From: Sinomonas mesophila
GTDB lineage: Bacteria; Actinomycetota; Actinomycetes; Actinomycetales; Micrococcaceae
Direction of reading: 5' to 3'
Assembly (NCBI RefSeq): GCF_001999765.1
Contig: NZ_MTIC01000003.1
Coordinates: 1 to 64,000, forward strand
Length of the DNA: 64,000 bases
The position numbers and the translations under genes were made by a program. The notes under the pieces are model-generated. The model made no database searches, had not been told where the DNA came from, and saw nothing but the letters and a program-made list of their open reading frames with translations. Shown here one piece after another: positions 17,104 to 51,763 of the stretch (position 1 is its first letter; every line of letters starts with the position of its first letter).

Positions 17104-17116
17104 GTGCCACCCGCGA

Positions 17117-18172: not shown

Positions 18173-19726
18173 TTAGTCAAAACCTTCCGGGAGGCGGGAC
18201 GGCCCGGGTGGGAGGTTTTTGGCGGCTGGTCCTTGGATGACGGTGCCGTCGGTGGCGAATCGGGAGCCGTGGCATGGGCAGTCCCAAGTGTTGTCGGAGG
18301 GATTGAAGCCGACGGTGCAGCCCAAGTGGCTGCAGGTTGCCGAGAGGGTGTGGACCTGCCCACCTTCGTCTTTGTATACAGCAGTCTCCTGGCCGCCGAC
18401 GTTGATGACTGCTCCCGCCCCGGGGGCCAGGGCCAGGACCTGGTGGCCAGGTCGCCCGCTGAGCTTGCCCACCAGGACTGCCATCGTGGTTTTGACGTTC
18501 TCCCTGATGAACCGGTTGGCGCTGGCCTTGGGGGTGATCCGGTTGCTGTTGAACACTCGGGCCCACCGGTTCTCCTGGCCGCTTAGGGTATCGGCGAGAA
18601 TAAGGGCTGCGGCGGTTCCGTTGGACAGGCCCCACTTGCGAAGGCCTGTGATGACATACACGTGCTTGGCGAGGGGGGACATGAGTCCGACGTAGGGCAG
18701 CCCGTCGAGCGGCATCCCGTCCTGGGTTGACCAGCGGTAGTCCACTTCGCCGACGCCGAGGCGGTCGTGAGCAAAGGCTGCGAGTCTCCTGTAGCGCCCC
18801 GCTGTGTCTTCGGCCTCCGACACGCGATGGCCTTCGCCGCCGGCAAGCACGTAACTCGTGCCGCCGACGTTGACAGTCAGAATGGATCTCAGCGGTTCGT
18901 CGGCGCTGATGAAAGTTGCGTCCAGCGTCGAGGTGTCCCCCCGTCCGGCGACGATGTAGGAACGGTGCGGGTGGCAGCGCAGGTAGAACAGGCCGTGGCC
19001 GCCGAATGGCACATTGGTGGCCACGATAACGTCATGAGCGTGGACTGTGCCATGCTCGGCGTCGACCATCCCCGGGGAGCCGTCGTGCACTTGGTGCGCA
19101 CGTGTGTCCTCGAAGACGAAGCTGCCCTCGCCGTTGACCGCCCGGGCAAGTCCTTGGAGGTATTTCACGGGGTGGATTTGCGCCTGCCCGTCGAATCGGA
19201 TCGCGCCCTTGACCGGGAAGGGCAGCGGCACGTCAGTCGTGAACGTGGAAGGTAGGCCGAGTCGCGCGGCAAGGGAGGCTTCGGCACGGACGAGTTCGAG
19301 CGCGTCATCGGATTCGGCGTAGGTGTAGTTTGCGACTCGGCGGAAGTCGCAGTCGATGCCCTCGTCGACCACGACGTGCGCGACGTGGTCGATCGCCGCC
19401 TCGTTCGCCTCCCCGTAGGTGCGGGCAGCGTTGGTGCCGTGGCTGCGCGCGAGTCCTGTATAGACCTGACGATGCAGGGAAGTGATTTTGCCCGTCGTAT
19501 GGCCGGTGACGCCGGTCCCGACGCGGGCGGCCTCGATGACCGCGACCGTGCGGCCCGCGCGTTTGAGCGCAAGCGCGGCGGTCAGGCCCGCGATGCCCGC
19601 GCCGATCACCGCCACATCGACTTCTATATGCCCGCGCAGGGCGGGGTAATCGGTGGTTCCGGCGGTAGCAACCCAGAGCGAGACGGGCTCACCTTCTGGC
19701 CGTGCATCGTTCGATGGGGGAGTCAC
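18173..19726 (-). CDS. FAD-dependent oxidoreductase with C-terminal Rieske domain
   Basis: 517 aa. A DAO-type FAD fold (VAVIGAGIAGLTAALALKRAG at about 38-58, HTTGKITSLH, KWGLSNGTAAALILAD) fills residues 30-400. A Rieske [2Fe-2S] domain at about 425-510 has CSHLGC and CPCHGS, all four ligands present. This architecture occurs in soluble actinobacterial oxidases of small amines or acids, but the substrate cannot be read from the sequence. Followed by two membrane protein genes on the other side of its start, not in the same direction of flow. Confidence 0.88.
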   Translation of the reverse strand: MTPPSNDARPEGEPVSLWVATAGTTDYPALRGHIEVDVAVIGAGIAGLTAALALKRAGRTVAVIEAARVGTGVTGHTTGKITSLHRQVYTGLARSHGTNAARTYGEANEAAIDHVAHVVVDEGIDCDFRRVANYTYAESDDALELVRAEASLAARLGLPSTFTTDVPLPFPVKGAIRFDGQAQIHPVKYLQGLARAVNGEGSFVFEDTRAHQVHDGSPGMVDAEHGTVHAHDVIVATNVPFGGHGLFYLRCHPHRSYIVAGRGDTSTLDATFISADEPLRSILTVNVGGTSYVLAGGEGHRVSEAEDTAGRYRRLAAFAHDRLGVGEVDYRWSTQDGMPLDGLPYVGLMSPLAKHVYVITGLRKWGLSNGTAAALILADTLSGQENRWARVFNSNRITPKASANRFIRENVKTTMAVLVGKLSGRPGHQVLALAPGAGAVINVGGQETAVYKDEGGQVHTLSATCSHLGCTVGFNPSDNTWDCPCHGSRFATDGTVIQGPAAKNLPPGPSRLPEGFD

Positions 19727-19773
19727 TCCGACACCTCCGGATCATTCGGCAACACTTTGCAGCGTTGAGGCCA

Positions 19774-20184
19774 TCAGGAGCGGCCGATTCCAAGGGCCGT
19801 CAGTAACACCAGCACGATGGTCGTGACAGCAAGCAGGCCATGACCGTAGACGAGGGCAACCGGGAACCGCGCTTCCGGGGTGGCCTCCTTCCGGCTACGC
19901 CACCAGCGCAGGAACATCACATCCCCGAGGATCGCGACGACGATCAGGAGACCAAAGGCGATCCAGGTCAAAATATCGCTGTCGATGATGACGTAGACGA
20001 TCCACAGAACCAGGCCGCCGCCCGCGAGGAGGAAATGAGAGAAGATCAGCGGCGGTACAAGTCGCGTGGGGATGGTCGCGTCGCTTTGGGCGGCACGCAA
20101 ACCTCCTTTGCTCAGCCATAGGCCGAGCATGGTGGACCCGAGTGCAGCAGTGAGTATCCAAGTGACGAGCGCTGCGATGGCCAT
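19774..20184 (-). CDS. Small four-helix membrane protein
   Basis: 136 aa with four clear membrane helices (residues 3-25, 43-65, 70-92, 108-130). No motif or family recognised; cytochrome-like histidines are few. It lies 5 bp downstream of the DUF2231 gene and upstream of the FAD-Rieske gene, so the three are probably one operon and may form a membrane redox unit (inference). Confidence 0.65.
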   Translation of the reverse strand: MAIAALVTWILTAALGSTMLGLWLSKGGLRAAQSDATIPTRLVPPLIFSHFLLAGGGLVLWIVYVIIDSDILTWIAFGLLIVVAILGDVMFLRWWRSRKEATPEARFPVALVYGHGLLAVTTIVLVLLTALGIGRS

Positions 20185-20189
20185 GCAAG

Positions 20190-20711
20190 TTAGTCCTTCG
20201 CTGTAGAGGTCGGGTCGAAACCGGCGGCCTGGGCTTCCTGGTCGACTACGCGGATGCCGTATTGGAAGGCGAGCTTGCCGCCGAGGTACCCGGAAACGCC
20301 AAGCGCAGCGATGCTAAGGGCGGACATGACGATCAGTCCGGTTGGAACCGGACCTTGCCCGAGTCTCAGGAGGAAGTTGACCAGATAGGCGGCGGTGATG
20401 GTCACGTTGAGACTCATGTGGACCATGGCAGTGCGGAAGGCCGGCGTACGCGTGGGGATGGCAAACAGGTCCAGGAACCCGATCAGCGCCGCTGCCGCCG
20501 CGCCCAGCACGCCGATCGCGATCAGCCACCTCGAGCCGGTCGCCAGTGCGGCCGCATCACTGTCCACGAGGCGTGAGCCGATATCGAAGACGAGGCTGGC
20601 CACCCACGCGCCGATCGGGACGGTGACCAGAATCGGGTGGAAGGGGTGGCCGTATGGGCCAGCGAGGACAGTTACGGGTTCCTTACCCCGACCTAGACCA
20701 TTCATGGACAT
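20190..20711 (-). CDS. DUF2231 membrane protein
   Basis: 173 aa from the ATG at 20711 (ATG at 20705 also possible). The N-terminal GHPFHPILVTVPIGAWVASLVFDI is the family signature, with two histidines on the first helix; four membrane segments in total. DUF2231 proteins often accompany Rieske or heme proteins, which fits the FAD-Rieske gene two genes downstream. A longer upstream frame to 20819 looks like non-coding extension. Confidence 0.75.
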   Translation of the reverse strand: MSMNGLGRGKEPVTVLAGPYGHPFHPILVTVPIGAWVASLVFDIGSRLVDSDAAALATGSRWLIAIGVLGAAAAALIGFLDLFAIPTRTPAFRTAMVHMSLNVTITAAYLVNFLLRLGQGPVPTGLIVMSALSIAALGVSGYLGGKLAFQYGIRVVDQEAQAAGFDPTSTAKD

Positions 20712-20882
20712 CCCCAAAATGGGGCGTCCAGATTCGCGTCGTACTCCTTCAGGACAGAATCGAGATCCACGGAAACTCTCCTGCAATCCTCGTGGGACCA
20801 GCGAGTCTACCTCCGCCATTGCCTTAGGTGTAGGGATGAGAGGCTGAGCTTCAGGGCCAATAAGCCACTCCGGAATAGTCGT

Positions 20883-21806
20883 CTATGCCGGTAGCCAGAA
20901 TTCGGTGAGCCGCCCGGCAAGGTCTCTGCCCTGGTCGTAGCCGGCTCGAGCAGCGGGCGGACGCAGGGACAGATCCATCGCATTGGCGCCGAACATGTGC
21001 TCGGAGTCGCTGCCCGGGAAGATCGTTTCGACCCTGCTGCCGCGTGCGCGGAGTTCGTCGACCTGTGCTGCGAGATGCATGCCCCAGTCCACTGGAGTCC
21101 GTGATCTGCCGCCGAAAGGTGACAGCACCAGCACCCGTGCGTATCCGGTGGCCAGATCGGCATTCTCGGCGTTGGATCGGTAGCCGCCGTCGATGTATCG
21201 GCCACCGCCGATCTTGTAGGCGAAGCCACTGGCACAGCTGGCGGCCACTGCGTCCACCAGGTCGACCCCGCTGTGGCGGTCGAACACGACCGGCTCACCG
21301 GTATGGGCATCGACCGCCGTGATGAGCACCGTTCGTTGCGGCCAGTGCTGGCTGGGCAGCCGGGCGGCGACGGTGGCGCGCCACCGCGTCTGCCCGGAGC
21401 CGTCTGACGCCGCATCCATCTCGAGCGCCGCCGCGCCCATTCTGCGGCGCATGTCGGCCGCGTCCTCAGCGGCGGCGATGATCCTGCCTGTCCTCTCCAG
21501 ATGGTCCGCTGCCGATCTGACCGGCACGCGTCCGCCGTCGGCTCCGGCCGGAGCTGTACGTGGCTGGGGTGCCGCGGCAAGGATGGCGGCAAGCAGGTCG
21601 GCTGGGGCCGCGCCGGTGATCTGGGCCGCGGCCGTCGAGCCGGCCGACGTCCCGACGATCAGATCGGCCTCGGTCACGTCCAGCCCGGCATCGAACAGGC
21701 CGGCGACGACGCCGATCAGCCACGCGTTGCCTGTCGACCCGCCGCCGCCGAGGACCAGCGCTCGCTCGCCCGTGAAGCGCGGAGCTGAAGAAGGGGTGGT
21801 GTTCAT
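20883..21806 (-). CDS. Patatin-like phospholipase
   Basis: 307 aa. Oxyanion loop GGGGSTGNAWLIG (about residues 20-32), nucleophile Ser in GTSAGS (about 53-58), and catalytic Asp in GGGRYIDGGYRSNAENADL. A complete Ser-Asp dyad lipid acyl hydrolase, cytosolic, with no signal peptide. It is preceded 46 bp upstream by a 19-codon ORF with a perfect ribosome site and is divergent from the ATP-grasp ligase gene. Confidence 0.88.
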   Translation of the reverse strand: MNTTPSSAPRFTGERALVLGGGGSTGNAWLIGVVAGLFDAGLDVTEADLIVGTSAGSTAAAQITGAAPADLLAAILAAAPQPRTAPAGADGGRVPVRSAADHLERTGRIIAAAEDAADMRRRMGAAALEMDAASDGSGQTRWRATVAARLPSQHWPQRTVLITAVDAHTGEPVVFDRHSGVDLVDAVAASCASGFAYKIGGGRYIDGGYRSNAENADLATGYARVLVLSPFGGRSRTPVDWGMHLAAQVDELRARGSRVETIFPGSDSEHMFGANAMDLSLRPPAARAGYDQGRDLAGRLTEFWLPA

Positions 21807-22173: not shown

Positions 22174-23709
22174 TTGCACGGGAGTTCGTTGGAGAATCGC
22201 GCCATGGGCGGATCGATGTCCATGAAGGACTTTGACCAGCTACAGGCACAGCTTGGGCGGGTGTGGGCCCTGAACCGGCCGGGCATGGCTGTCGAGCACG
22301 TGCTGGTGGTGCTGCCGTCCTTCAGTCTTGGCGAGTCACTGCTGCACCACTACGCCTCTCGGATTCCGGCGCTCGAGCATCGCTATCTGGTCACCCACCT
22401 CATGCTGCACCGGATCCAGTCATGTGAGCTGGTGTTCCTGACCTGTCAGGCACCCGGCCAGGAGGTGATGGACTATTACACCTCGCTGGTGCCTGCAGAC
22501 CTTCGGGCAAGCGTGCGAGCCCGCTTCCGGCTGACGGTCGTGCCTGACGACACGCCCCGTCCCATCGCGGCCAAGTTGCTTGACCGGCCCGAACTGCTCA
22601 AGGAGATTCGGAGTTCGTTCGGGGATCGGCCTGTCCTTATTGCGCCGTGGAACGTGACCGACAGTGAGGTCGAGGTGGCCCTGCAGCTGCAGGCGCCGAT
22701 CGAGGGCACCGCGCCCAACCTGTGGCCGCTTGGCTACAAGAGCGCAGGCCGACGGCTGTTCGCCGAGGCAGGGGTCCCGGCCCCCGTCGGATGTGAGGAC
22801 GTCCGCAGCGTCGAGGATGTGGTGGCCGCCATCGCCGCGATCCGGGCTGCGCGGCCAGCCTCCCCTGGCGTTGTGATCAAGCACGACAACAGCGGCGCCG
22901 GTGACGGCAACGTCGTCGTCGACCTGCGGCACGTTGGCGGCGGACCCGCAGCGGGCGAGCATGTCCGCAAGCGGGTGGCGGCGCTGCCGGAGTGGTATCT
23001 GCGCGATCTTGGTGCCGGGGGCGTGGTCGAAGAACTGATCGCCGGCGCCCGGTTCGCCAGCCCCAGCGTGCAGCTGGACATCTCGCCGTACGGTGAGGTT
23101 GCGGTGGTGTCCACCCACGAGCAACTGCTCTCCGGAGAAAGCGGCCAGGTGTACGTCGGGTGCCGGTTCCCAGCCGACCCGGCGTATGCGCGCGACCTCG
23201 CGCGTCACGGGCGGGCCGTCGCCACCCAACTCGCCGCGCGTGGCGTCATCGGGCGCTTGAGTCTCGACTTCGCGGCCGCGGGCGATGGCGCCGGCGGCTG
23301 GCAGCTGTTCGCGCTGGAGGTCAACCTTCGCAAGGGCGGCACCACCCATCCCTTTGCCGTGCTTCGCAACCTGGTTCCCGGCCACTACGACGCCGACGCC
23401 GGGCAATGGGTGGCCGACGATGGCACCGCTCGTTGGTACTGGGCGACTGACAACCTGGTCGACCCGGGCTGGCTCGGACTTCCGCCCGCCACGGTGATCA
23501 AGGCCGTCGCTGACGCCGGCCTGCAATTCGACTACCGAACTGGGACCGGTGTGGTGCTGCACATGCTGTCCTGCCTGGCCATCGACGGCCGTTTCGGTCT
23601 GACCGCGATTGGGCGGACCCCCGAGCAGGCGGCCGACCTCTACCACGCCACCAAGGCCGCCATCGACGGTCACGCCAACCCTGCCAGACGTGATAGTCCG
23701 CACCGCTGA
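22174..23709 (+). CDS. ATP-grasp peptide ligase-like protein (PGM1-related)
   Basis: 511 aa from the TTG at 22174, which follows AGGAGG by 7 nt; in-frame ATGs at 22204, 22216 and 22222 lack a ribosome site. N-terminal Rossmann-like part (HVLVVLPSFSLGESLLHHY) and a C-terminal ATP-grasp region with KSAGRRLFAEAGVPAP, VVIKHDNSGAGDGNVVVDL and FALEVNLRKGGTTHPF (metal-ligand ENxxxxG type). It resembles the ATP-grasp ligase PGM1 of pheganomycin biosynthesis, which joins an amino-acid-like starter to ribosomal peptides. Divergent from the tiny ORF and the patatin. Family fairly sure, substrate unknown. Confidence 0.75.
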   Translation: MHGSSLENRAMGGSMSMKDFDQLQAQLGRVWALNRPGMAVEHVLVVLPSFSLGESLLHHYASRIPALEHRYLVTHLMLHRIQSCELVFLTCQAPGQEVMDYYTSLVPADLRASVRARFRLTVVPDDTPRPIAAKLLDRPELLKEIRSSFGDRPVLIAPWNVTDSEVEVALQLQAPIEGTAPNLWPLGYKSAGRRLFAEAGVPAPVGCEDVRSVEDVVAAIAAIRAARPASPGVVIKHDNSGAGDGNVVVDLRHVGGGPAAGEHVRKRVAALPEWYLRDLGAGGVVEELIAGARFASPSVQLDISPYGEVAVVSTHEQLLSGESGQVYVGCRFPADPAYARDLARHGRAVATQLAARGVIGRLSLDFAAAGDGAGGWQLFALEVNLRKGGTTHPFAVLRNLVPGHYDADAGQWVADDGTARWYWATDNLVDPGWLGLPPATVIKAVADAGLQFDYRTGTGVVLHMLSCLAIDGRFGLTAIGRTPEQAADLYHATKAAIDGHANPARRDSPHR

Positions 23710-24140: not shown

Positions 24141-24208
24141 AATTTTGATCAACACCGTATTTTGATCAGCCCTGTATTTTGATCGACAGTGTATTTTGAT
24201 CAGCACTG
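24141..24208 (+). repeat. Four tandem 17-bp repeats
   Basis: Four adjacent 17-bp units of the form TATTTTGATCARCACTG (24141, 24158, 24175 and 24192), with a partial fifth unit TATTTGG after them. The conserved core is TTTTGATC. AT-rich inside GC-rich DNA, 240 bp upstream of the GH15 start. Looks like an array of protein binding sites, either an operator of the sugar operon or iterons. Confidence 0.85.
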
Positions 24209-24447
24209 TATTTGGAATCAGACTGCGCCTCCGGGGGGACGGGACGGGATGATTGGCTGGCCAGTTCGTTGTAGCTCCTGGCTTGAGCTTGCGCCTGAAC
24301 GTTCTCGCCGTGGCGTATCTGCCGGCTGCGCTCCACCACGCCATGACGCCATGAGTCGGCCAGGAGCCTGCGGTCGGCGTGGACCGGCGGAAGAGCTCGC
24401 CGCTTCCCGGCCCGACACATCCGCCCGAAAGAAAACGGAGTCCAGCA

Positions 24448-25872
24448 ATGAGCGCGTCCACCACGTTGTCCGTCATGCCCGCCCGCACGAGCCGGCCGAC
24501 CGGCACGACTCAACCGCGGGCGACCGTCCAAAACTCCTTTGCCCCGGGAGCGGTCGATCTGCCGTCGCTCGTCCCGACCATGTTCACCTTCATGTTCCGG
24601 AACATCGCCAGCGACGGCTTCATCTTCAGTGATCCGCAGTCGCCGGGCGACGTCTCCCGGGACTCGAGGCCGGGCTGCATCATCGCCGCCCCCTCCTTCC
24701 CGGCTGAAACCCCCGGCACCGACGAGGACTACGTCTTCAACTGGGTGCGCGACGGGGCCATCACGGCCATGGAGGTGGCCAAGGCCATCCTGCCCACCGA
24801 CCAGGACGGGTCGGTGCAGACCCTCAACGACTACGTGACGTTCGCCAACCTCTGCCACTCCAACGCCCAGCCGACCAAGGGCCACGCCTGCTTCGCCATC
24901 GCCGGCGACGCCCGCCCCTGGACGGAGCAGAACGACGGCCCGGCCCTGCAGTCGATCACGCTCCTGGCCGCCTACGACCAGCTCGATCCCAGCACGCAGA
25001 AGGTGGCGGTCGGGCTGGTCAACGCGAACGTGGCCTTCCTCCTCGGCGTCTACGAGGACCCCACCACGAACCTGTGGGAGGAGCACACCGGCTACAGCTT
25101 CTTCGCCCGCTCCGCCCAGCTGCGCTGCTTCGAGGAGATCCAGGCCTCGACCGTCGCCGGCATCGAGAAGCCGGCCGGGCTGCAGCCGGCCATCGACTGG
25201 CTGCGCCAGGCCATCGCAGGCCACTGGGACGGGAGCAAGTACGTGAGCATGATGGCCGATCCGGGCAACGGCGCCCCGCCGTCGCCGCAGGACCCGGTCG
25301 TCGCCGGCTACGACCCGAACATCGACATCGTCCAGGCGGCCGTCTACGGCGCCGTTTCCGTCACGGACCCCAAGCTGCTGGCCACGGCGGCCCAGCTGCG
25401 GTCCCAGTGGGAGGAGGGCGGGATCGCCTTCTACCCGATCAACAAGGTGGACAAGGAACAGTTCGGCATCGGGCCGATGTTCGGCCGCTACCCGGGCGAC
25501 GTGTACGACGGCGACGCCGCGCACCCGGCGCTCGGGGAACACCCCTGGGCGCTCTCGACGTGCAACGTCGCCGAGCTGCACTACAGGCTGGCCGCCGAGA
25601 TCGCCTCCAGCGGCACGGTGCCCGTGGACGAGCTGTCGGCACCTTTCTTCGCCCAGTCCGGCATCGACGGGACGACGAAGCCGGCGGCGGCCGCGGCTGC
25701 CCTGGCGGCGACCGGCGACGCCATGGTGCGCGCCGTCGTCTACCACAGCGACCACCTGGAGCTCTCCGAGCAGTTCGACGGCACCACCGGCTACGAGCGC
25801 AGTGTCCGCAACCTGACGTGGAGCTACGCGGCCTACCTGTCCGCCATGCGGGCCCGCGCCGACGTCGTCTGA
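24448..25872 (+). CDS. GH15 family glycoside hydrolase (glucoamylase-like)
   Basis: 474 aa from the ATG at 24448 with an ACGGAG ribosome site. GH15 (alpha/alpha)6-barrel features: DYVFNWVRDGAITAMEVAKA (catalytic-region Asp and substrate-binding Arg-Asp), NLWEEHTGYSFFARSAQLRCF (general-acid Glu-Glu region) and a late PWALSTCNVAELHYR block. No convincing signal peptide; the Thr/Pro-rich N-terminus is unlike a Sec signal, so it may act inside the cell. It should release glucose from alpha-glucosides. First gene of an eight-gene operon. Confidence 0.85.
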   Translation: MSASTTLSVMPARTSRPTGTTQPRATVQNSFAPGAVDLPSLVPTMFTFMFRNIASDGFIFSDPQSPGDVSRDSRPGCIIAAPSFPAETPGTDEDYVFNWVRDGAITAMEVAKAILPTDQDGSVQTLNDYVTFANLCHSNAQPTKGHACFAIAGDARPWTEQNDGPALQSITLLAAYDQLDPSTQKVAVGLVNANVAFLLGVYEDPTTNLWEEHTGYSFFARSAQLRCFEEIQASTVAGIEKPAGLQPAIDWLRQAIAGHWDGSKYVSMMADPGNGAPPSPQDPVVAGYDPNIDIVQAAVYGAVSVTDPKLLATAAQLRSQWEEGGIAFYPINKVDKEQFGIGPMFGRYPGDVYDGDAAHPALGEHPWALSTCNVAELHYRLAAEIASSGTVPVDELSAPFFAQSGIDGTTKPAAAAAALAATGDAMVRAVVYHSDHLELSEQFDGTTGYERSVRNLTWSYAAYLSAMRARADVV

Positions 25873-25896
25873 GCCGTCGCAGAAGGAGGGAGTGAC

Positions 25897-27822
25897 ATGT
25901 ACGTGAGATTCCCCCACGGGGCGGCGAACCGCACCGATCCCGCGGCGGCGGCCGAGGTCCTCTACGACGCCGTCATCGTCGGCGGCGGGATCGCCGGCTC
26001 CATCATCGCCTCGCGGCTGAGCGAGGCCGGCAGGAGAGTGCTCATCCTCGAAGCGGGCTCGGCCCAGGACCTCACCCTGAAGGGCTACGAGGCCTACCTC
26101 GAGCGCTTCTACTCCGCGACGAGCAAGGACAACCAGGCGCCCTACCCTGTGGTGCCCAACGCCCCGATGCCCCGCGGCACGGACGCGCGGCGGATCGCCC
26201 CGGGAACGCCCGACTCCTCCTCCTACATCGTCCAGAGCGGACCCTTCGCCACCGACACCACCTACACGAGGGTTCTCGGCGGCACGACCATGCACTGGGA
26301 GGGCAAGACGCCGCGGATGCTGCCCGAGGACTTCCGCATGCGCACGCTCTACGGCGAGGGTGCCGACTGGCCGCTCACCTACGAGGACCTCTCCCCGTAC
26401 TACGACGAGGCCGAGCGCGAGATCGGCGTCTCGGCCGACGTCGAGGACCAGGCCTACCTCGGGACCACCTTCGACGAGGGCTACGTGTACCCCATGAAGG
26501 GCCTGCCCCTCTCGTACCTGGACCAGATGGTCGCCAGGGACGTCGACGGGATGCCGGTCGAGCTCGACGGGGAGAAGCGTCAGCTGCGCGTCCGGCCGTG
26601 GCCGCAGGGCCGGAACGGGATACCGAACCCGGCGTACGACGGCGGGAAGGGTTACGTTCCGCGGGGGGCGGTGAGCACCTTCCAGGTCGAGCTCGGCCAG
26701 CGGTGCCAGGGCAACAACAACTGCGTGCCCATCTGCCCGGTGCAGGCCAAGTACAACGCCGGCAAGACCCTCGCCGTGGCCCTCCAGAGCGGCCGGGTCG
26801 ACCTGGTCGCGCAGGCGGTGGCCTACAAGGTGCACGTCGACGAGCAGACCGGACGGGTGACCGAGATCGAGTACCGCCGCTACGAACGGCCCGACAGCAC
26901 CAGCTTCACCACCCTGAGGGCCCGGGGCCGGCTGTTCATCCTGGCCACCAACGCCGTCGAGAACCCCCGGCTCATGCTGGCCTCCGGCCTGCGCAGCTCG
27001 AGCGGCCTCATGGGGCGGAACTTCATGGACCACGCCTACCTGCTCGCGTGGGCCCTGCTCCCGGAGGTGGCCGGCACCTTCCGCGGCACCAACTGCACCG
27101 GCGGCATCACCGACCTGCGCGGCGGCCACTTCCGCCGCCGCCAGGCCGCCTTCAGCGTCGACATCCACAACGACGGCTGGGGCTGGGCCCGCGGGGCACC
27201 CATGACGGACCTGATCGACCTGGTCGACGCCGGCGGCCGCTACGGCGAGACCCTCCGGCAGGGCCTCGTGGACCGGGTGTCACGCCAGCTGCAGCTGGCC
27301 TTCATGGTCGAGGTCCCCGCCAACCCGAGCAACCGGATCACCGTGGACCCGGCCTACACCGACCATCTGGGGAACATGCGGCCCATCCTCACCTACGACA
27401 TCCCCGACTACACGATGCGCGGCGTGGCCTACGCCAGGCAGCTGTCGAAGCGGATCTTCGCCCGCCTCGGGGCCGAGGACCACACCGAGTACGATCCCAC
27501 CTTCTGGGGCTACGCCGTCCACGAGGGCGAGGGGTACGAGATCCGAGGAGGCAACCACCTCGCCGGCACCCACATGATGGGCCGCGTCCCGACCAATTCC
27601 GTGGTCAACCCGGATCAGCGGTCCTGGGACCACGCGAACCTCTACCTGGTCGGCGGGGGGAGCATGCCGACCGTGGGCACCTCGAACATCACGCTCACCC
27701 TCGCGGCCCTGTGCCTGCGGAGCGCCCGCGCCATGCTTGCCCAGCTCGACGCCGAGAGCGCACCGATCGAGGTCTCCTCGAAGGGCGCCACCCGTCCTCA
27801 ACACCAGGAGGTGTCCCAGTGA
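25897..27822 (+). CDS. GMC oxidoreductase with Cys3 iron-sulfur motif
   Basis: 641 aa. FAD motif VIVGGGIAGSIIASRLSEAGRRVLILEAG, FAD-contact GGTTMHWEGKTPR, and GMC C-terminus with GTHMMGR (His) and TVGTSNITLTLAAL (Asn). C270-X5-C276-X3-C280 in QRCQGNNNCVPICPVQ has the spacing of the 3Fe-4S ligands in bacterial FAD-dependent glucose dehydrogenase (212/218/222). So it is a sugar dehydrogenase, not an oxidase, and should pass electrons onward. Its small subunit is two genes downstream. Ribosome site GAAGGAGGG. Confidence 0.88.
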   Translation: MYVRFPHGAANRTDPAAAAEVLYDAVIVGGGIAGSIIASRLSEAGRRVLILEAGSAQDLTLKGYEAYLERFYSATSKDNQAPYPVVPNAPMPRGTDARRIAPGTPDSSSYIVQSGPFATDTTYTRVLGGTTMHWEGKTPRMLPEDFRMRTLYGEGADWPLTYEDLSPYYDEAEREIGVSADVEDQAYLGTTFDEGYVYPMKGLPLSYLDQMVARDVDGMPVELDGEKRQLRVRPWPQGRNGIPNPAYDGGKGYVPRGAVSTFQVELGQRCQGNNNCVPICPVQAKYNAGKTLAVALQSGRVDLVAQAVAYKVHVDEQTGRVTEIEYRRYERPDSTSFTTLRARGRLFILATNAVENPRLMLASGLRSSSGLMGRNFMDHAYLLAWALLPEVAGTFRGTNCTGGITDLRGGHFRRRQAAFSVDIHNDGWGWARGAPMTDLIDLVDAGGRYGETLRQGLVDRVSRQLQLAFMVEVPANPSNRITVDPAYTDHLGNMRPILTYDIPDYTMRGVAYARQLSKRIFARLGAEDHTEYDPTFWGYAVHEGEGYEIRGGNHLAGTHMMGRVPTNSVVNPDQRSWDHANLYLVGGGSMPTVGTSNITLTLAALCLRSARAMLAQLDAESAPIEVSSKGATRPQHQEVSQ

Positions 27823-28931
27823 CCGCATCGACCATCAACACCCGCGACGACCTGATCGACTACCTGCACGTGGCGATCGCCCTCGAGCACGCCACCATCC
27901 CCCCGTACCTGACCGCGCTCTACTCCATCCATCCCGCCACCAACTCTGACGCCGCCCACGTCATCCGGGTAGTCGTGGTGGAGGAGATGCTGCACCTGAC
28001 CCTCGCCGCCAACGTGCTGAACGCCATCGGCGGGTCTCCCGACCTGACCCGTCCCGGCTTCGTGCCCTCCTACCCGGCCCGTCTGCCCGACGGGGAGGAC
28101 GACTTCTACGTCGACCTGCGGCCCTTCTCCCCTGAAGCGGTGGAGACGTTCCTCAATATCGAACGGCCGGGCGCCGCTCCCAGCGGCAGGTCACGGCTCG
28201 TGCCGACGCCGGACGGCGGGAGGCCGTTCCTCGTCTCCAGCCCGACGGTCGAGGGGATGCACTTCTACAGCATCGGCGAGTTCTACGAGGAGATCATCGA
28301 GGGGCTGGAGAAGGTGGCTGCGGCCGACCCCGGGCTCTTCAGCGGGGACCCGGCCAGGCAGGTGGGGCCCGAGTACTTCTACTCCGGCGGCGGGGCGGCG
28401 ATCCCCGTCGTCGACCTGGACTCGGCGCGGCGGGCGCTGCGCTTCATCGCCGAACAGGGCGAGGGCCTCGACTCGGGCATTTACGACGACGACGGCGAGC
28501 TCGCGCACTACTACCGGTTCCGGCAGCTGAAGCTCGGCCGCTACTACCAGGCTGGCGACCACCCCGACTCGCCCTCCGGCCCGCCTCTCAGCGTCGCGTG
28601 GGACGAGGTGTTCAGGGTGAAGGTCAGCGCCAAGCTGGCCGACTATCCGCCCGGATCGGAGCTCGAGGCTGCAGCGCTGGACTTCAACGCCGACTACGAG
28701 GCTTTTCTCGCCCTCCTCACTCAGGCGTTCAACGGCCAGCCGGGCCTCCTGCTCGATGCCGTGCCCTACATGTTCCGCCTGCGCGACGCGTTCAACCGCC
28801 TCGTGCGCAACCCCCTGCCGGGCAGCGGCGGGCACCATGCCGCCCCCACCTTCGAGGTCCCGACGGTGGCCGGGTCGGGCCCGGAGGCCTCCCAGGCCGC
28901 CAGCGACACAGCCCAGGCGGTGGGGCGGTGA
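27819..28931 (+). CDS. Ferritin-like protein (VioB-type di-iron domain)
   Basis: 370 aa from the GTG at 27819, whose 4-bp overlap with the GMC stop (GTGA) and AGGAGGTG ribosome site fix the start. The N-terminal helices carry HVAIALEHATIPPYLTALYSI and VVVEEMLHLTLAANVLNAIGG, i.e. E...EEMxxH ligands of a ferritin-like di-iron centre. Such domains occur in iminophenylpyruvate dimer synthases and related oxidases. Its role between the two dehydrogenase subunits is unknown. Confidence 0.8.
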   Translation: MTASTINTRDDLIDYLHVAIALEHATIPPYLTALYSIHPATNSDAAHVIRVVVVEEMLHLTLAANVLNAIGGSPDLTRPGFVPSYPARLPDGEDDFYVDLRPFSPEAVETFLNIERPGAAPSGRSRLVPTPDGGRPFLVSSPTVEGMHFYSIGEFYEEIIEGLEKVAAADPGLFSGDPARQVGPEYFYSGGGAAIPVVDLDSARRALRFIAEQGEGLDSGIYDDDGELAHYYRFRQLKLGRYYQAGDHPDSPSGPPLSVAWDEVFRVKVSAKLADYPPGSELEAAALDFNADYEAFLALLTQAFNGQPGLLLDAVPYMFRLRDAFNRLVRNPLPGSGGHHAAPTFEVPTVAGSGPEASQAASDTAQAVGR

Positions 28932-29437
28932 GCACCGAGCCGTTCGACGAGTTCCTCCGCCTCTCGGCCGAGCTCACCGCCTTCGAGGAGACCGACCTGC
29001 TCGGCACCGGGCTGGCCCACCAGTACCTGGCCAAGGTGCGCGCCGCCTGCGGTGACGACGTCGTCGTCGCCCTTCTGGACGCCTACCGCGCCGCCCGCGC
29101 CGACGCGGAGGACGACGGCGGACGCCGCGACCCGATCCTGCTCGACCGGGCCCTGCGCCACCGGATCTTCAGCGACGACCGCCTCGGGCCGGTGGCCCGC
29201 AACGTCGTCAAGCTCTGGTTCGCTGGGATGTGGTACGGGCTGCCACCCGAGTGGACGGACCGCTACGGGGCCCACAGCGCGGCCGAAACCTCCACCGTCA
29301 CCTCCGCCTCCTATCAGGAGGGGCTGCTGTGGCGGGCCATCGCGGCCAACCCCCCGGGCGCCAAGGCGCCCGGCTACGGCTCCTGGGCCGAGCCACCCCG
29401 CATCGAGCAGCGCTATCTGAAAGGGGCAGGAAAATGA
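28928..29437 (+). CDS. Small subunit of FAD-linked sugar dehydrogenase
   Basis: 169 aa from the GTG at 28928 (GTGA overlap). Starts FDEFLRLSAELTAFEETDLLGTGLAHQYL and has VARNVVKLWFAGMWYGLP, the hallmark motifs of the FAD-sorbitol/glucose dehydrogenase small subunit family. That family usually has a Tat signal that carries the large subunit out; here there is none, so the complex is probably cytoplasmic. Partner of the GMC protein at 25897. Confidence 0.75.
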   Translation: MSTEPFDEFLRLSAELTAFEETDLLGTGLAHQYLAKVRAACGDDVVVALLDAYRAARADAEDDGGRRDPILLDRALRHRIFSDDRLGPVARNVVKLWFAGMWYGLPPEWTDRYGAHSAAETSTVTSASYQEGLLWRAIAANPPGAKAPGYGSWAEPPRIEQRYLKGAGK

Positions 29438-30348
29438 CAACACTAGCGGATGGCCTCGGTCCGGACAGGGTGAAGCTCGGCGTCTGCTGCACGCTCTGGT
29501 GGAACGATGATTTCCCCACCATCGACGCCGGCATCCCCTTCGGCCAGGCCGTGAGCGAGATGGCCCTCGCGGGCTTCCAGGGCTGCAGCATCGGGCACAA
29601 GTACCCCTCCGACGCCGCGGTGCTCAAGGCCGCCCTCGACCTCCGCGGACTGCAGGTGTCCGAGCCCTGGACGAGCACGTACTTCACGATCAAGAACATG
29701 CGGCAGAAGACGATCGACGCCTTCGAGCAGACGCTGGCGCACATCAAGGCCCTCGGCGGAACCGAGCTGGTCGTGGCCGAGTTCGGAGCCTCCTCGCACC
29801 TGCTCCCCATCGACCTGTTCGCCAATCGCCCGGTCTTCACCGACGCCCAGTGGGACGACCTGACCTCCGGCCTGGAGGAGCTAGGCAAGATCGCCAACGC
29901 GGCCGAGATGAGGCTCAGCTACCACCACCACATGGGCACCGGCGTCATGTACCGGGCCGATATCGACCGGCTGATGGCCTCGACGGATCCGGAGCTGGTC
30001 CACCTGCTGCTCGACACCGGCCATGTCGCCTTGGCGGGCGACGATCCGCTGGACGTGGCCCGGGCCCACGCGGACCGCATCGGCCACGTCCACCTCAAGA
30101 GCGTCCGCCCCGAGTTCGTGAGCCAGGTGCAAGAAGAAGGCCTCTCGTTCCAGGAGGGCGTCGAGCTCGGCGTCTTCACCGTGCCCGGCGACGGCACGAT
30201 CGAGTTCCGGCCGATCCTCGAGGCGCTCGCCGAGGCCGACTACGAGGGCTGGCTGGTCGTGGAGGCCGAGCAGGACCCGAACAAGGCCAACCCGCTCGAA
30301 TATGCCCAGAGGGCCCGCGCCTACCTCGCGGATGTCCTGGGCTGGTAG
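29434..30348 (+). CDS. Sugar phosphate isomerase/epimerase-like TIM barrel (IolE type)
   Basis: 304 aa from the ATG at 29434 (ATGA overlap). AP-endonuclease-2-type TIM barrel: VKLGVCCTLWWNDD, LSYHHHMGTGV, LLLDTGHVALAGDDP, IGHVHLKSVRPEF and a final VVEAEQDPN supply the Glu/His/Asp metal ligands. Closest by pattern to inosose dehydratase IolE. Next to a 3-keto-forming type of dehydrogenase it may isomerise, dehydrate or cleave an oxidised sugar. Confidence 0.82.
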   Translation: MTTLADGLGPDRVKLGVCCTLWWNDDFPTIDAGIPFGQAVSEMALAGFQGCSIGHKYPSDAAVLKAALDLRGLQVSEPWTSTYFTIKNMRQKTIDAFEQTLAHIKALGGTELVVAEFGASSHLLPIDLFANRPVFTDAQWDDLTSGLEELGKIANAAEMRLSYHHHMGTGVMYRADIDRLMASTDPELVHLLLDTGHVALAGDDPLDVARAHADRIGHVHLKSVRPEFVSQVQEEGLSFQEGVELGVFTVPGDGTIEFRPILEALAEADYEGWLVVEAEQDPNKANPLEYAQRARAYLADVLGW

Positions 30349-30360
30349 AGGAGATCAGGA

Positions 30361-31413
30361 ATGGACACGACACCCCAGCGAGACGTCTTCTTCAGCTTCT
30401 TCATGTTCACCGCCGACCTGAGGCCCCAGGACCCGAGCTACACGAAGGTCCTGATCGACCATCTGAAGGTCCTCACCGAGATGGGCTACGACGGCTTCGA
30501 CGTGCACATCGCCTCCCAGCCGGCGACCGTCGACCATCGGCGCGAGGTCGAGGCCTACGCCGGCCTCAAGAAGGCGTTCGACCATGCGGGGCTGAGGGGG
30601 ACGAAGTTCACCACCAACGTCGGGACCACGCGGACCTTCGACCCGACGTCACCCTACGAGGAACAGCGCAGGCAGGCCCTCTCCTACCTCACGTCGCGCG
30701 TCGACATCACCCAGGTTCTCGGCGGCGACTCGATCATGTCCGGGCCGTTCCTCTACCCCTACGGAGTGTTCCCGCTCACGGACGCCAATGAGCAGATCTG
30801 GTCCGATGCCCTCCAGGACTGGATGAAGCCGCGCTTCCGCGCGGCGCGCGCCGTCTTCGAGGAACTGGCGGAGTATGCCGCGGCGCAAGGGGTGAAGCTC
30901 GCCGTCGAGCCCGTCAAGAGCTGGGAGACGCCCCCGCCCAACATGGTCTCGGAGGCGCTGGACTTCCTCGACACCCTCGGGAACCCGCACGGCGCCGGCG
31001 TGACGATCGATACCGCGCAGGTCGTGATGGAGAGCCAGGGCCCTGGGGTCTTCAGGGAGAACGTCGCCCGGGCCGCGAGCCAGGACCGGCTCCACTATGT
31101 CCACATCTCCGCGCCCGATCGGGGTGCGGTGCATGACAGCTGGATCCCGTGGGAGACCATCCTGAACGAGGTCGAGCCGGTCTACCGCGGGCCCTATCTG
31201 GTCGAGGTGTTCAACGCGATCCCGCCGTTCGACAGCTCCATGCGGATGGCCCGCCGCCGCTTCTGGCGCCCCGGCGAGGACGCGCCGTCGTCCGCCGACA
31301 GTGCCTACGACGTCGCCAAAGCCGCGCTGGAGGAACTCCGGGAGCAGATCGCCCTGTCCGCCCGAACCCGGTCGGATGCGACGCTGCTGGCCTACACCGG
31401 AGAGGACGACTGA
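30361..31413 (+). CDS. Second sugar isomerase/epimerase-like TIM barrel
   Basis: 350 aa, 12 bp after the previous gene. TIM-barrel features: GYDGFDVHIASQPA, KLAVEPVKSWETPP (Glu), GVTIDTAQVVMES (Asp), HYVHISAPDRGAVHDSWIPWETI (His) and YLVEVFNAIPPF (Glu), as in ketose 3-epimerases. It is distinct in sequence from its neighbour, so the pathway uses two different steps rather than a duplication. Confidence 0.8.
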   Translation: MDTTPQRDVFFSFFMFTADLRPQDPSYTKVLIDHLKVLTEMGYDGFDVHIASQPATVDHRREVEAYAGLKKAFDHAGLRGTKFTTNVGTTRTFDPTSPYEEQRRQALSYLTSRVDITQVLGGDSIMSGPFLYPYGVFPLTDANEQIWSDALQDWMKPRFRAARAVFEELAEYAAAQGVKLAVEPVKSWETPPPNMVSEALDFLDTLGNPHGAGVTIDTAQVVMESQGPGVFRENVARAASQDRLHYVHISAPDRGAVHDSWIPWETILNEVEPVYRGPYLVEVFNAIPPFDSSMRMARRRFWRPGEDAPSSADSAYDVAKAALEELREQIALSARTRSDATLLAYTGEDD

Positions 31414-32240
31414 TGTTGGCCCAGGTGTCAGATCCCATCAGCATGGTCGTGAAGCAGACGGGCGACGTCCGTCTTCACACCTTCGTCTCGTCCTTCGAGT
31501 ACAGCAACATCGCCAACGCCACCCACATCGTCGAGACCGCGAACCAGCTGGTGCTCGTCGACTCGCAGTTCCTCGTTCCCTACGCGAGGGCCTTCAGGGA
31601 CTACGCGGACAGTCTCGGCAAGCCGATCAAGAGGCTGTACCTTTCCCACCGGCACCCCGACCACTGGTTCGGCACGGGGGCCGCGTTCGCCGACACCCCG
31701 ATCTACGCGCTGCCCGAGACGATGAAGTTCATCCAGGAGCACGGCGAGGACTCGAGGAGCGACCATTGGAAGCTCGGCGACCTCGTCCCGGATCAGATCG
31801 TCGTCCCCGGAGAGGTCGCGAGCCTGGGGGAGGAGACCATCGACGGGGTCAGGTATCTCTTCGACCGCGTCACGGACACGGAGATCGACGTCACCCTCAC
31901 GATCCGGCTTCCCGAGCTGGGCGTGTACTTCGCCCAGGACCTGATCTACAGCGGCACCCACCTGTACCTGTCGGAGGACCTGGGCCACTGGATTCGGGTT
32001 CTGCAGGACATGCTCCTGACGGACTATGAGCTGTTCATGCCCGGCCACGGTCTGCCGGCCGACAAGAATGAAGTGGCCCGCAACATCGAGTATCTCAATG
32101 CCGCGCAGCAGGCCATCGGCAACGGGGTCACGGACGAGGCCTTCAAGGAGTTCATGCTCCAGCGATACCCCGAACGCAAATGCCCGGGGATCTTTGACAT
32201 CTACCTGCCCCGGCTGTTTGGCGGCGCGAGCAGCTACTGA
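31413..32240 (+). CDS. MBL-fold metallo-hydrolase
   Basis: 275 aa; the ATG overlaps the previous stop (TGATG). Metal-binding LSHRHPDHWFGTG (HxHxDH), followed by a later Asp (YFAQDLIYSG) and MPGHGLP (His). All zinc ligands are present. Substrate unknown; it may hydrolyse a lactone or ester formed by the dehydrogenase. Confidence 0.85.
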   Translation: MLAQVSDPISMVVKQTGDVRLHTFVSSFEYSNIANATHIVETANQLVLVDSQFLVPYARAFRDYADSLGKPIKRLYLSHRHPDHWFGTGAAFADTPIYALPETMKFIQEHGEDSRSDHWKLGDLVPDQIVVPGEVASLGEETIDGVRYLFDRVTDTEIDVTLTIRLPELGVYFAQDLIYSGTHLYLSEDLGHWIRVLQDMLLTDYELFMPGHGLPADKNEVARNIEYLNAAQQAIGNGVTDEAFKEFMLQRYPERKCPGIFDIYLPRLFGGASSY

Positions 32241-32259
32241 TTATGGAGGCGATCACACC

Positions 32260-33915
32260 ATGGACGCGGGATACACCGTAGGGAAATACCTCGTCGAGCG
32301 GCTGCATCAACTGGGGCTCGAGCACCTGTTCTCCATCGCCGGGGACTATTCGATTGATTGGCTGAACCGGTACGTCACGCCGAGCAGCATCGAGATCATC
32401 GAAGAAGTCAACGAGATGAACGCCGGCTATGCCGCGGACGGCTACGCGCGGCTGAAGGGAATCGGTGCCCTCTGCGTGACCTACTCGGCAGGCGCACTGT
32501 GTGCGGTGAATGCACTCGCCGGTGCCTACGTCGAGAAGGTGCCGCTCGTGCTGATCAACGGCACGCCGAGCATCAAGAAGACCATCACCTTCGAGCAGAC
32601 CGGGTTCAGCGCGCATCACTTCATCACCGGGCGCGAGACGGACCTCCAGTCGTTCGAGCACATCACCGCCGCGGCGGTCCGCGTGGACAGTCCGGATCTG
32701 GCGCCGGTGCTGATCGACTATGCGCTGACGCGGTGCATCAGCGAGCGGCGCCCGGTGTACATCGAGCTCCTCCAGGACATGGTCGAACTGGAGTGCGAGC
32801 CGCCTAGCGGTGTGCTGAAGCCGGCCAGGGCGATATCGGATGAGACGAGCCTCGAAGAGTCGGTCGCGCAGATCTGCTCGAGGCTCGAACGCGCCGATAA
32901 TCCGCTCATCTGGGTCGGCGTGGAGGTGGACCGCCTCGGCCTGCAGGAGAAGACCACGAGCTTGATCCAGCAGCTGAACGTCCCCTTCGTCACGGAGCTC
33001 CTGAGCAAGGCCGTCCTCTCCGAGGACGACGAGCTGTTCGTCGGGGTGCTGGACGGCCAGGCCTCATCGGCAGCTGTTTTGGATCTGGCCAAGACGTCCG
33101 ATTTCATCCTGGCCCTCGGCGTGTGGCTGACGGATATCAACTCGCTGGGCTGGGACCCGGACTTCGACAAGACCGCCTTTGCCTCGATGGATGCGGTCAA
33201 GCTCGGAACCTATTTCGGCGGGCAGGTCGCGCTGGAGCACCTGATCGACGGGATCCTGGCACAACAGGTCGCGCCCAAAGTTCGGAATCTGGAGGCGACA
33301 CTGGCTTATACCGGGCAGACCGTGGCCTTAACCGATGAGATCACGTACCAGGGATTCTACGATTTCATCCAGCCGTACATCGACGAGAACACCATTGTCG
33401 GCAGCGATTCGAGCCTGAACTACTTCGGGAGCATTCTGCTCGAGGTGCCCACGCCGGGCGCGTTCATCGCCCAATCGTCCTATTCCTCGATCGGCTACAT
33501 TGGGGCGGCCGCGACCGGTCTTTGCTTGGCAAAGAGCCCCCACCAAAGGGTGATGGTCTTCTCTGGGGACGGAGGCTTCCAGATGACCGCCCAATGCCTC
33601 TCGACCCAGACGCGTTTCCAGCTCAACCCGATCGTCTTCGTCATCGACAACGGTGTCTACGGGGTGGAGCAGTGGCTCGCTGATGCAAGTGTCTTCCATG
33701 ACGACAAGCCGTTCTACAGGTCGTGCATCCTGCACCCGTGGAATTACAGCAAGCTCGCGGAGGTGTTCGGCTACCAGGGGTGGAAGGTCAGCACCTATTG
33801 GGAGCTGGAGGAAGCCGTGGCGGGTGCACTGGCGAACTCGAACAGCCCGTCCATCATCCAGGTCGTGGTGCCCGACCATTCCATTCCCGAGAATGCGGAG
33901 TGGAAGGCGCAGTAG
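32260..33915 (+). CDS. Thiamine-diphosphate 2-keto acid decarboxylase
   Basis: 551 aa from the ATG at 32260 with a TGGAGG ribosome site. The Pyr domain has EEVNEMNAGYAADGYAR (catalytic Glu) and FSAHHF (the HH pair of pyruvate/indolepyruvate decarboxylases); the PP domain has FSGDGGFQMTAQ through IDNGVYGVEQ (GDG...N ThDP/Mg site). All catalytic positions are in place. Last gene of the operon; it probably decarboxylates a 2-oxo acid made by the preceding steps. Confidence 0.9.
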   Translation: MDAGYTVGKYLVERLHQLGLEHLFSIAGDYSIDWLNRYVTPSSIEIIEEVNEMNAGYAADGYARLKGIGALCVTYSAGALCAVNALAGAYVEKVPLVLINGTPSIKKTITFEQTGFSAHHFITGRETDLQSFEHITAAAVRVDSPDLAPVLIDYALTRCISERRPVYIELLQDMVELECEPPSGVLKPARAISDETSLEESVAQICSRLERADNPLIWVGVEVDRLGLQEKTTSLIQQLNVPFVTELLSKAVLSEDDELFVGVLDGQASSAAVLDLAKTSDFILALGVWLTDINSLGWDPDFDKTAFASMDAVKLGTYFGGQVALEHLIDGILAQQVAPKVRNLEATLAYTGQTVALTDEITYQGFYDFIQPYIDENTIVGSDSSLNYFGSILLEVPTPGAFIAQSSYSSIGYIGAAATGLCLAKSPHQRVMVFSGDGGFQMTAQCLSTQTRFQLNPIVFVIDNGVYGVEQWLADASVFHDDKPFYRSCILHPWNYSKLAEVFGYQGWKVSTYWELEEAVAGALANSNSPSIIQVVVPDHSIPENAEWKAQ

Positions 33916-37946: not shown

Positions 37947-38041
37947 GGTTGAGGGATCCGGCGGCGTGGCGTTGCCGGGGTGAGAGAGGTCGAGGTCTTC
38001 AGGATGGGAAGCGACGAAGCCGCCCAACTGAAAACCTCGAC

Positions 38042-38889
38042 ATGGACCACTGTACTTGTGGGCCCGGAGCGCGCTGGTGCGCCCGTGCCGATGCCCTGTT
38101 CCATTTCCCCGGCCTGCATGTGCTCGATGTGGGCTGCGACGATGGCGACGGCCGCTTGAGTGTCACGGTGGAGACCGACGCCGATGTCGGTGGCTGCCCG
38201 GAGTGCGGGTGCGTCGCTGTCGGCCACGGCCGCCGCGTCCACACCGTCGCGGACACGCCCTGCTTCGGGACCCCGGTGCGGGTGCAGTGGGCCAAGCGGA
38301 TCTGGCGCTGCCAGGAGCCGACGTGCCCGAGGACAACGTTCTCCGAGGCCCACGCCTTCGCCTCCCCGCGGGCCAAGCTCAGCGCCCGGGCGGTCTCCTG
38401 GGCCACGGACGCGCTCGAGCGCGACGACACGTCCGTCTCGGCCCTGGCCCGGCACCTCGGGGTGGACTGGCACACCCTCTGGGACGCCGTCGCGGCCGAA
38501 GCCCGCCGCCGGCTCGAGGCGCCCGAGCGGCTGGCCGGGATCGACGCGCTCGGGGTCGACGAGCACGTGTGGTCCCCCACCGGCCTGCCCGGGTCCGGGA
38601 TGGTCACGGGCATCGTGGACCACACCCGCGGACCCGACGGGAAGCCCAGGGCGAGGCTGCTGGACCTCGTCGAAGGACGTTCCGGGCCGGTCTACCGCAG
38701 CTGGCTCACCGACAGGGGCGAGGAGTTCAGGGCAGCGGTGAAGGTCGCGGCCCTCGACCCCTTCCAGGGCTACAAGAACGCCATCGACGACACCCTCCAG
38801 GACGCCGTGGCCGTGCTGGACGCCTTCCACGTCGTGAAGCTGGGAACCCAGGCGGTGGACGAGGTCCGCCGCCGCGTCCAGCAGCAGAC
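38042..38889 (+). pseudogene. ISL3 family transposase, truncated
   Basis: From the ATG at 38042: zinc-finger region with CGCVAV and CQEPTCP, helix-turn-helix (SALARHLGVDWHTLWDAV), then the DDE core IDALGVDEHVW, GIVDHTR and LDPFQGYKNAI, DAFHVVKLG. The frame is cut after VRRRVQQQT by the IS256 end; the C-terminal third is missing. Confidence 0.85.
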
Positions 38890-38948
38890 TCGGGGGTGTC
38901 AGATGGTTTGTGTGAGGGCGGTGTCCCCGACAGAAAGCCGAGACACTG

Positions 38949-39857: not shown

Positions 39858-39945
39858 ATCTCAACTCATACCAGAACGAGGCGATGCGCACGGCGATCTA
39901 CCCGCCGGACACCGCCATCGCCTACACCGCCCTGGGCCTCCGAGG
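39858..39945 (+). pseudogene. MazG-like pyrophosphohydrolase fragment
   Basis: LNSYQNEAMRTAIYPPDTAI followed by YTALGL is the N-terminal signature of phage-type MazG nucleotide pyrophosphohydrolases. Only about 29 codons exist, joined directly to the broken IS256 transposase. Confidence 0.6.
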
Positions 39946-39990
39946 AGGCCGGCAACGCGCAGTCAAGGTCGGGGTCGGGGTGAGCAGGTG

Positions 39991-47660: not shown

Positions 47661-47692
47661 ACTCATATCGGCTCGGTCGGGGTGGAGGAAGA

Positions 47693-49917: not shown

Positions 49918-49938
49918 CGTGCAAAAAGATTGGATGGA

Positions 49939-51682: not shown

Positions 51683-51763
51683 GGTGCGTTCCCCTTCTTC
51701 GGCCCCGCGGCGGCCGGTCCCCGAGTGATTCCCCGGGAGTAGGGTACAGGACGGGCAGTCTTT

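Follow-up and report, generated by a model that had tools for sequence, protein, structure and literature searches.

Here we describe an eight-gene operon in the first 64,000 nucleotides of contig NZ_MTIC01000003.1 of the actinobacterium Sinomonas mesophila (assembly GCF_001999765.1; this whole stretch is called the window below). The gene set is conserved in other bacteria, and we give an even chance to the reading that it is a horizontally mobile, self-contained unit encoding a cytoplasmic pathway of glucose oxidation, running via C2 and a dehydration. A full-text search of the open-licence literature returned no description of the set among the matches listed, in agreement with an earlier interpretation made from the letters alone (the sequence-only reading), which had considered it unpublished.

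A conserved eight-gene operon

The operon comprises eight open reading frames (ORFs) at 24448–33915, all on the plus strand, with starts read from the DNA:

24448–25872, plus strand: glycoside hydrolase family 15 (GH15) glucoamylase-type inverting alpha-glucosidase, 474 amino acids (aa); PF00723, E = 6.4e-30; PDB matches are glucoamylases.
25897–27822, plus strand: GMC flavoprotein with a CX5CX3C motif (3Fe-4S type), 641 aa; PF05199/PF00732.
27819–28931, plus strand: ferritin-like protein, 370 aa, GTG start; PF12902, E = 1.1e-65.
28928–29437, plus strand: dehydrogenase small subunit-like protein, 169 aa, GTG start, without a twin-arginine translocation (Tat)-like motif; fold match, no Pfam match.
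29434–30348, plus strand: TIM barrel 1, IolE-like, 304 aa; PF01261; TIGR04379 at 346.8 bits (cut-off 290).
30361–31413, plus strand: TIM barrel 2, kin of ketose 3-epimerases, 350 aa; PF01261.
31413–32240, plus strand: metallo-beta-lactamase (MBL)-fold metallo-hydrolase, a proposed hydrolase, 275 aa; PF00753, E = 2.9e-6.
32260–33915, plus strand: thiamine diphosphate (ThDP)-dependent 2-keto acid decarboxylase, indolepyruvate/pyruvate decarboxylase-like, 551 aa; PF02775/PF02776/PF00205.

Successive genes are joined by a gap of 24 bp, three overlaps of 4 bp, a gap of 12 bp, an overlap of 1 bp and a gap of 19 bp. These four start/stop overlaps and a largest gap of 24 bp agree with the tight, one-directional arrangement that the sequence-only reading had reported. 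Its statement that transporter, kinase and cytochrome genes are absent likewise holds for the eight genes in family scans, as does the lack of a visible export signal, judged by simple sequence patterns rather than a signal-peptide program: the eight window proteins contain no CXXCH and no twin-arginine-like motif.

As relatives we took the best 80 of 223 loci found by scanning genome contigs with six ferritin-like sequences, a choice that favours gene sets resembling the window operon. By tblastn all eight genes are present in 33 of the 80, and in 24 they keep identical order and strand, which bears out the claim that the oxidative sugar operon is a real unit and rules out a chance assembly of its genes. 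Hosts include Streptomyces, Lentzea, Saccharothrix and rhizobia; rearranged versions occur in Vibrio, Pseudoalteromonas and Aquimarina, with the two halves divergent in seven loci of these three genera, and the halves are swapped in two loci (L043 and L045). At 40% coverage the small subunit is present in 78 of the 80 loci, the GMC protein in 77, the IolE-like protein in 73, TIM barrel 2 in 56, GH15 in 44, the MBL-fold protein in 37 and the decarboxylase in 36, some of the missing genes being contig ends or broken copies (for example, in L083 and L087). A second operon type (L002, L003, L033, L036, L038 and similar) has an extra pair of small subunit and GMC genes, a lipocalin-like protein and a protein annotated as heme-binding, and is without the MBL-fold protein and decarboxylase.

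The active sites are largely intact, as judged from residues picked from family motifs. Both catalytic Glu of GH15 are kept in 44/44 homologues, four putative metal ligands of TIM barrel 1 in 73/73, three putative metal ligands of TIM barrel 2 in 53/53, HxHxDH and two further ligands of the MBL-fold protein in 33/33, and six checked residues of the decarboxylase in 36/36. TIM barrel 2 best matches 2qw5 (5e-153), named just 'Xylose isomerase-like TIM barrel', and more distantly ketose 3-epimerases (3e-12); we propose that it is a keto-sugar isomerase or epimerase. The decarboxylase has pyruvate and branched-chain decarboxylases as PDB relatives, and the MBL-fold protein has no PDB sequence match at 0.001; the two occur together in 36 of the 37 loci that have either. 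Other loci carry debranching-enzyme-like or MGH1-like glycosidases, and one of these or GH15 is found in 60 of the 80.

A putative three-part dehydrogenase

The best PDB match of the GMC protein is a flavin adenine dinucleotide (FAD)-dependent glucose dehydrogenase (FAD-GDH; 6a2u, 7.3e-73), followed by fructose dehydrogenase (FDH; 7w2j, 8.4e-62). The three Cys of CX5CX3C and a His and an Asn are kept in 64/64 homologues, and the same cysteines and His/Asn pair in 36/36 aligned rows that include second GMC copies. For the small protein, the AlphaFold model (pLDDT 84.9) has the small subunit of fructose dehydrogenase as its two best PDB folds (probability 0.99, E 0.015 and 0.016), the remaining 48 rows shown having probabilities of at most 0.21. 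Profiles give fainter signals: the Pfam family FAD-SLDH is matched weakly by 5/32 members at E up to 1 (best E 0.0014), and a profile search gave one match at E 1, itself weak (E 0.19).

Between these two genes lies that of the ferritin-like protein, which matches 3hl1, named just 'ferritin like protein', in sequence (6.8e-19) and in fold (E 1.1e-9). Its Glu/His set is conserved as Glu 68/68, Glu 68/68, His 66/68, Glu 57/68 (Asp in 11), Glu 68/68 and His 68/68, and these residues are candidate ligands of a di-iron centre. The sequence-only reading had found this position between two dehydrogenase subunits unusual, and it proves to be a constant feature of the relatives: the best GMC and ferritin-like matches are adjacent on one strand in 78 of the 79 loci having both, and the ferritin-like and small-subunit genes in 78/78. 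The three proteins have co-evolved, with a distance-matrix correlation among them of 0.98 against 0.76–0.95 for other pairs, computed for 25 of the 33 complete loci plus the window, where shared descent raises all correlations.

Consistent with a cytoplasmic location, CXXCH occurs in none of 551 unbroken homologues of the eight proteins, and a twin-arginine-like motif in one of 95 small subunits. Hydrophobic stretches at the N terminus occur in 1/55 GH15, 1/80 ferritin-like and 6/95 small-subunit proteins; those of GMC proteins (77/90) we interpret as the first strand of the FAD domain. Membrane-bound FAD-GDH and FDH (6a2u, 7w2j/8k6j) share with the operon a homologous catalytic subunit with CX5CX3C and a small subunit of probably the same fold, whereas the operon lacks a Tat-like motif and a cytochrome c subunit and places the ferritin-like gene between the two subunit genes. 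The trio is therefore probably one cytoplasmic dehydrogenase in which the ferritin-like protein would stand in for cytochrome c.

A general rule that such ferritin-like proteins always accompany a GMC protein holds in this subfamily and in the distant L013 and L162, but not in L161 and L163 nor, by annotation, in L164 and L165. In L161 (4866–6134) and L163 (4914–5972) the genes of the distant ferritin-like kin immediately precede Ebo clusters, and each of them follows a gene for a large protein that has no Pfam match.

Gene associations that bear on the oxidised carbon

TIM barrel 1 was identified here as IolE-like, an addition to the sequence-only reading; its best PDB match is the solved IolE 3cny (3.5e-72). 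In locus L050 a protein of about 420 aa near the IolE-like gene matches aldos-2-ulose dehydratase (PF22301, 1.4e-49; 4a7k, 2.6e-61, over residues 20–417). Homologues of this dehydratase propeller are present in 8 of the 80 loci, including L050 and L034: a Contendobacter metagenome-assembled genome (MAG), an Actinomycetales MAG, three Aquimarina, a Propionibacteriaceae MAG and two Roseococcus, thus spanning Gamma- and Alphaproteobacteria, Actinomycetota and Bacteroidota. All eight carry the IolE-like gene and none carries TIM barrel 2 or the decarboxylase. As background we used 296 Actinomycetota, 289 Alphaproteobacteria and 296 Bacteroidota genomes, taken irrespective of operon presence, minus two centre genomes named for having the dehydratase; matches above 100 bits occur in 0/879, with five weak ones over the cut-off (28–41 bits). 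Among 30 core-holding genomes, drawn from the 80 and chosen to include all eight dehydratase loci, 11 have a match, 9 of them above 100 bits.

A second association comes from Saccharothrix sp. ALI-22-I, whose genome also holds loci L017 and L046. In its locus L118 a pyranose oxidase (TIGR02462, 630.9 bits; cut-off 544.9), an IolE (302.6 bits; cut-off 290) and the propeller are encoded one after another. A FastTree phylogeny of 100 IolE-type sequences places the L118 IolE within the operon clade (75 tips, support 0.89). Five annotated IolE, of which four adjoin other iol genes, fall outside this clade; as the 20 generic sequences are not united in a single group, the root is uncertain. By their general chemistry, IolE dehydrates an inosose and aldos-2-ulose dehydratase a 2-ulose. 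Because of the dehydratase homologues in 8 of the 80 loci and the L118 row, we favour C2 oxidation of free glucose and a 2-ulose intermediate, and propose that TIM barrel 1 is a 2-keto-sugar (glucosone) dehydratase.

A second dehydratase homologue of the same Saccharothrix (L117, 8658–13606) has no IolE or GMC match within 19 kb and adjoins an FAD enzyme weakly like bagremycin/ferroverdin oxygenases.

The proposed route and its alternatives

On these assignments, the GH15 enzyme would release beta-D-glucose from an alpha-glucoside, and the GMC protein, small subunit and ferritin-like protein would together form a single dehydrogenase, converting glucose to D-glucosone by oxidation at C2. FAD would pass its electrons via the Fe-S cluster to the di-iron protein; the latter would replace the cytochrome c of membrane FAD-GDH and FDH and may pass them on to oxygen. 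Glucosone is a ring analogue of inosose, and the IolE-like enzyme would dehydrate it to a 4-deoxy-2,3-dicarbonyl sugar; TIM barrel 2 would isomerise this dehydrated sugar, and the MBL-fold hydrolase and ThDP enzyme would open and cleave it to a short product.

Such a route would resemble the fungal path to pyrone antibiotics. Passages of PMC7910265 and PMC5849585 describe how pyranose oxidase makes glucosone, and PMC7910265 how pyranosone dehydratase turns glucosone into cortalcerone, a proposed antibacterial. What the operon would share with this pyranose 2-oxidase/pyranosone (aldos-2-ulose) dehydratase route, as outlined in parts of PMC7910265 and PMC11650716, is GMC oxidation to a 2-ulose followed by dehydration, and some operon relatives carry a homologue of the dehydratase propeller domain. 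Unlike the fungal route, the operon has an Fe-S GMC protein with a small subunit and a ferritin-like protein, an IolE-type dehydratase and additional TIM barrel, MBL-fold and decarboxylase genes, and it is bacterial and apparently cytoplasmic.

Several observations weigh against the proposed route. The window GMC protein is no pyranose oxidase (57.4 bits against the cut-off of 544.9, over the C-terminal 65 residues only), and its nearest solved relatives act at C1 (GDH) and C5 (FDH). Searching the window's own genome gave no PF22301 match, and the eight dehydratase loci represent about five lineages, of which three bear MAG in the title and one 'uncultured'. Should the dehydratase and IolE catalyse the same elimination, their co-occurrence would be redundant. 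The pairing of pyranose oxidase with IolE was seen once (L118), and four other actinobacterial genes (L151–L154; two over the TIGR02462 cut-off and two below) have no IolE or dehydratase neighbour, so that a general rule that pyranose oxidase goes with IolE is not supported. For the remaining steps, no glycosidase was recognised in the stretch examined for 20 of the 80 loci, and the fourth putative ligand of TIM barrel 2 is His in 40/53 homologues and Gln in 13/53. Finally, distant ferritin-like kin occur without an adjoining GMC gene in the two Ebo clusters (L161 and L163), and, going by annotation, L164 and L165 show no GMC protein.

We regard as unlikely a C3 oxidative deglycosylation in which the GMC protein would form a 3-keto-glucoside, one TIM barrel would eliminate the aglycone and the other would hydrate the resulting 2-hydroxy-3-keto-glucal. 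An oxidoreductase with two TIM barrels fits the general plan of C- and O-glycoside pathways; PMC10628242 describes an Agrobacterium operon with two 'sugar phosphate isomerases/epimerases', and the 2-hydroxy-3-keto-glucal hydratase 8ro4 is a weak relative of the IolE-like protein (2.6e-5). That Agrobacterium operon, however, ends with a Gfo reductase, whereas the eight genes here include no Gfo-type reductase and add GH15, MBL-fold, decarboxylase and ferritin-like genes. In addition, with both catalytic Glu in place, GH15 resembles a normal inverting hydrolase, which makes an elimination unnecessary; the MBL-fold protein and decarboxylase would have no role; and the dehydratase association points to 2-uloses. 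The analogy to C-glycoside deglycosylation drawn in the sequence-only reading holds for the combination of an oxidoreductase with isomerase-type TIM barrels but is less well supported for C3 chemistry, given the absent Gfo reductase and associations that favour C2.

Improbable, in our judgement, is a cyclitol route in which the GMC protein would oxidise an inositol-like compound to an inosose, the IolE homologue would dehydrate it and the ThDP enzyme would replace IolD. TIM barrel 1 does pass the IolE model, has a solved IolE as its best PDB match, and identity to the five annotated IolE is 40–46%. Yet a Pfam scan of the eight operon genes and 22 other ORFs of the window (30 of 51 ORFs picked) revealed no iolB, iolC, iolD or iolG, the operon clade stands apart from the annotated IolE and includes the one beside pyranose oxidase, and the neighbouring genes belong to alpha-glucosidase families. 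Compared with inositol catabolism, the operon thus shares a protein above the NCBIfam IolE cut-off but has an IolE of a separate clade, with no other iol gene found nearby. RefSeq names the operon dehydratase iolE (for example, RHE_RS28750 in L198) with no other inositol gene annotated nearby, and this name is probably misleading.

Very improbable is a C1 route by way of gluconolactone, an MBL-fold lactonase, dehydration to a 2-keto-3-deoxy acid by the IolE homologue and decarboxylation by the ThDP enzyme: it agrees with FAD glucose dehydrogenase as the closest solved GMC relative and accounts for the MBL-fold protein and decarboxylase and their near-constant pairing, but the MBL-fold gene is missing from 43 of the 80 loci (41 with GMC, 36 with IolE; a few are at contig ends) and is therefore not an obligatory second step, and the dehydratase and pyranose oxidase associations would be left unexplained.

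Distribution and probable mobility

The ferritin-like gene was found in none of 14 other genomes of the genus, from which we conclude that the operon was probably acquired. It is also missing from all 21 same-family genomes of other genera and occurs in one of 22 same-order genomes of other families; across the class, 13 of 340 genomes match at E 1e-40, the window's own included, and of the 12 others one is 74% identical and eleven are 37–65% identical by piece. The IolE cut-off is passed in 2 of 148 actinomycete genomes: the window's own and G236, where the gene lies in a seven-gene copy of the operon without GH15. The window proteins are 76–89% identical to those of L015 (Kitasatospora) and L018 (Lentzea). 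Membership of a larger natural-product cluster was rejected, as no flanking ORF family is common to more than two genera (up to 7 kb per side, ORFs of at least 120 aa, E 1e-15; 20 actinobacterial loci and the window). This patchy kinship, the high identity to L015 and L018 and the lack of common flanks fit recent horizontal gain of a self-contained cassette.

The ferritin-like gene was matched in 171 plasmid records, and seven of the 19 plasmid neighbourhoods opened are eight-gene sets: Rhizobium lentis, R. sp. N621, R. bangladeshense, R. etli 8C-3, R. etli CFN 42 (by annotation), Sinorhizobium meliloti pMl1 (GMC in two pieces) and Pseudoalteromonas xiamenensis (divergent). Three others are of the type with a second GMC gene, and the remainder are remnants or distant relatives. 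In R. etli CFN 42 the operon lies on p42f, annotated complete from RHE_RS28730 to RHE_RS28765, beside a LuxI/LuxR pair; of 93 loci searched, ten have a LuxI homologue close to the operon, and all of these are rhizobial. The proximity of quorum-sensing genes, the occurrence on plasmids and the scattered distribution weakly suggest a specialised function, not a housekeeping one.

Elsewhere in the window

Just upstream of the operon, at 24142–24225 (no strand assigned), about five units of 17 bp, some 80% alike and containing TGATC, form a tandem array that is a possible operator; a similar short pattern was matched within 500 bp upstream in only 2 of 14 related operons. Further upstream on the same strand (22174–23709) is an ATP-grasp/PGM1_C ligase related to BesA (119 bits, below the cut-off of 750); the 14 other congeneric genomes contain no match, and neither do the related loci examined by tblastn. 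The minus strand at 16279–21806 encodes a PpoB2-type copper chaperone, an FAD oxidoreductase with a Rieske domain and a patatin. Downstream of the operon are two overlapping transposase ORFs of the ISL3 and Mutator families (37949–39983), followed at 43379–51090 by sugar-transferase, nitroreductase-like, pyruvyl-transferase and glycosyltransferase genes; this region looks like an exopolysaccharide island, and G+C drops to 0.56–0.58 over 46001–52000.

Discussion

A bolder extension of the proposed route, which we consider doubtful, is that the ferritin-like di-iron subunit would replace cytochrome c and send GMC electrons to oxygen in a widespread, plasmid- and island-borne glucosone pathway that makes a shared product, such as a pyrone-type antimicrobial or a signal, under quorum regulation in rhizobia. 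As one enzyme, the GMC protein with its small subunit and ferritin-like partner would represent a flavo-dehydrogenase of new design, and a conserved bacterial route in which glucose is oxidised away from C1 and then dehydrated would be a new branch of sugar chemistry. The complete operon in the standard strain R. etli CFN 42 makes its function, and any role in symbiosis, testable.

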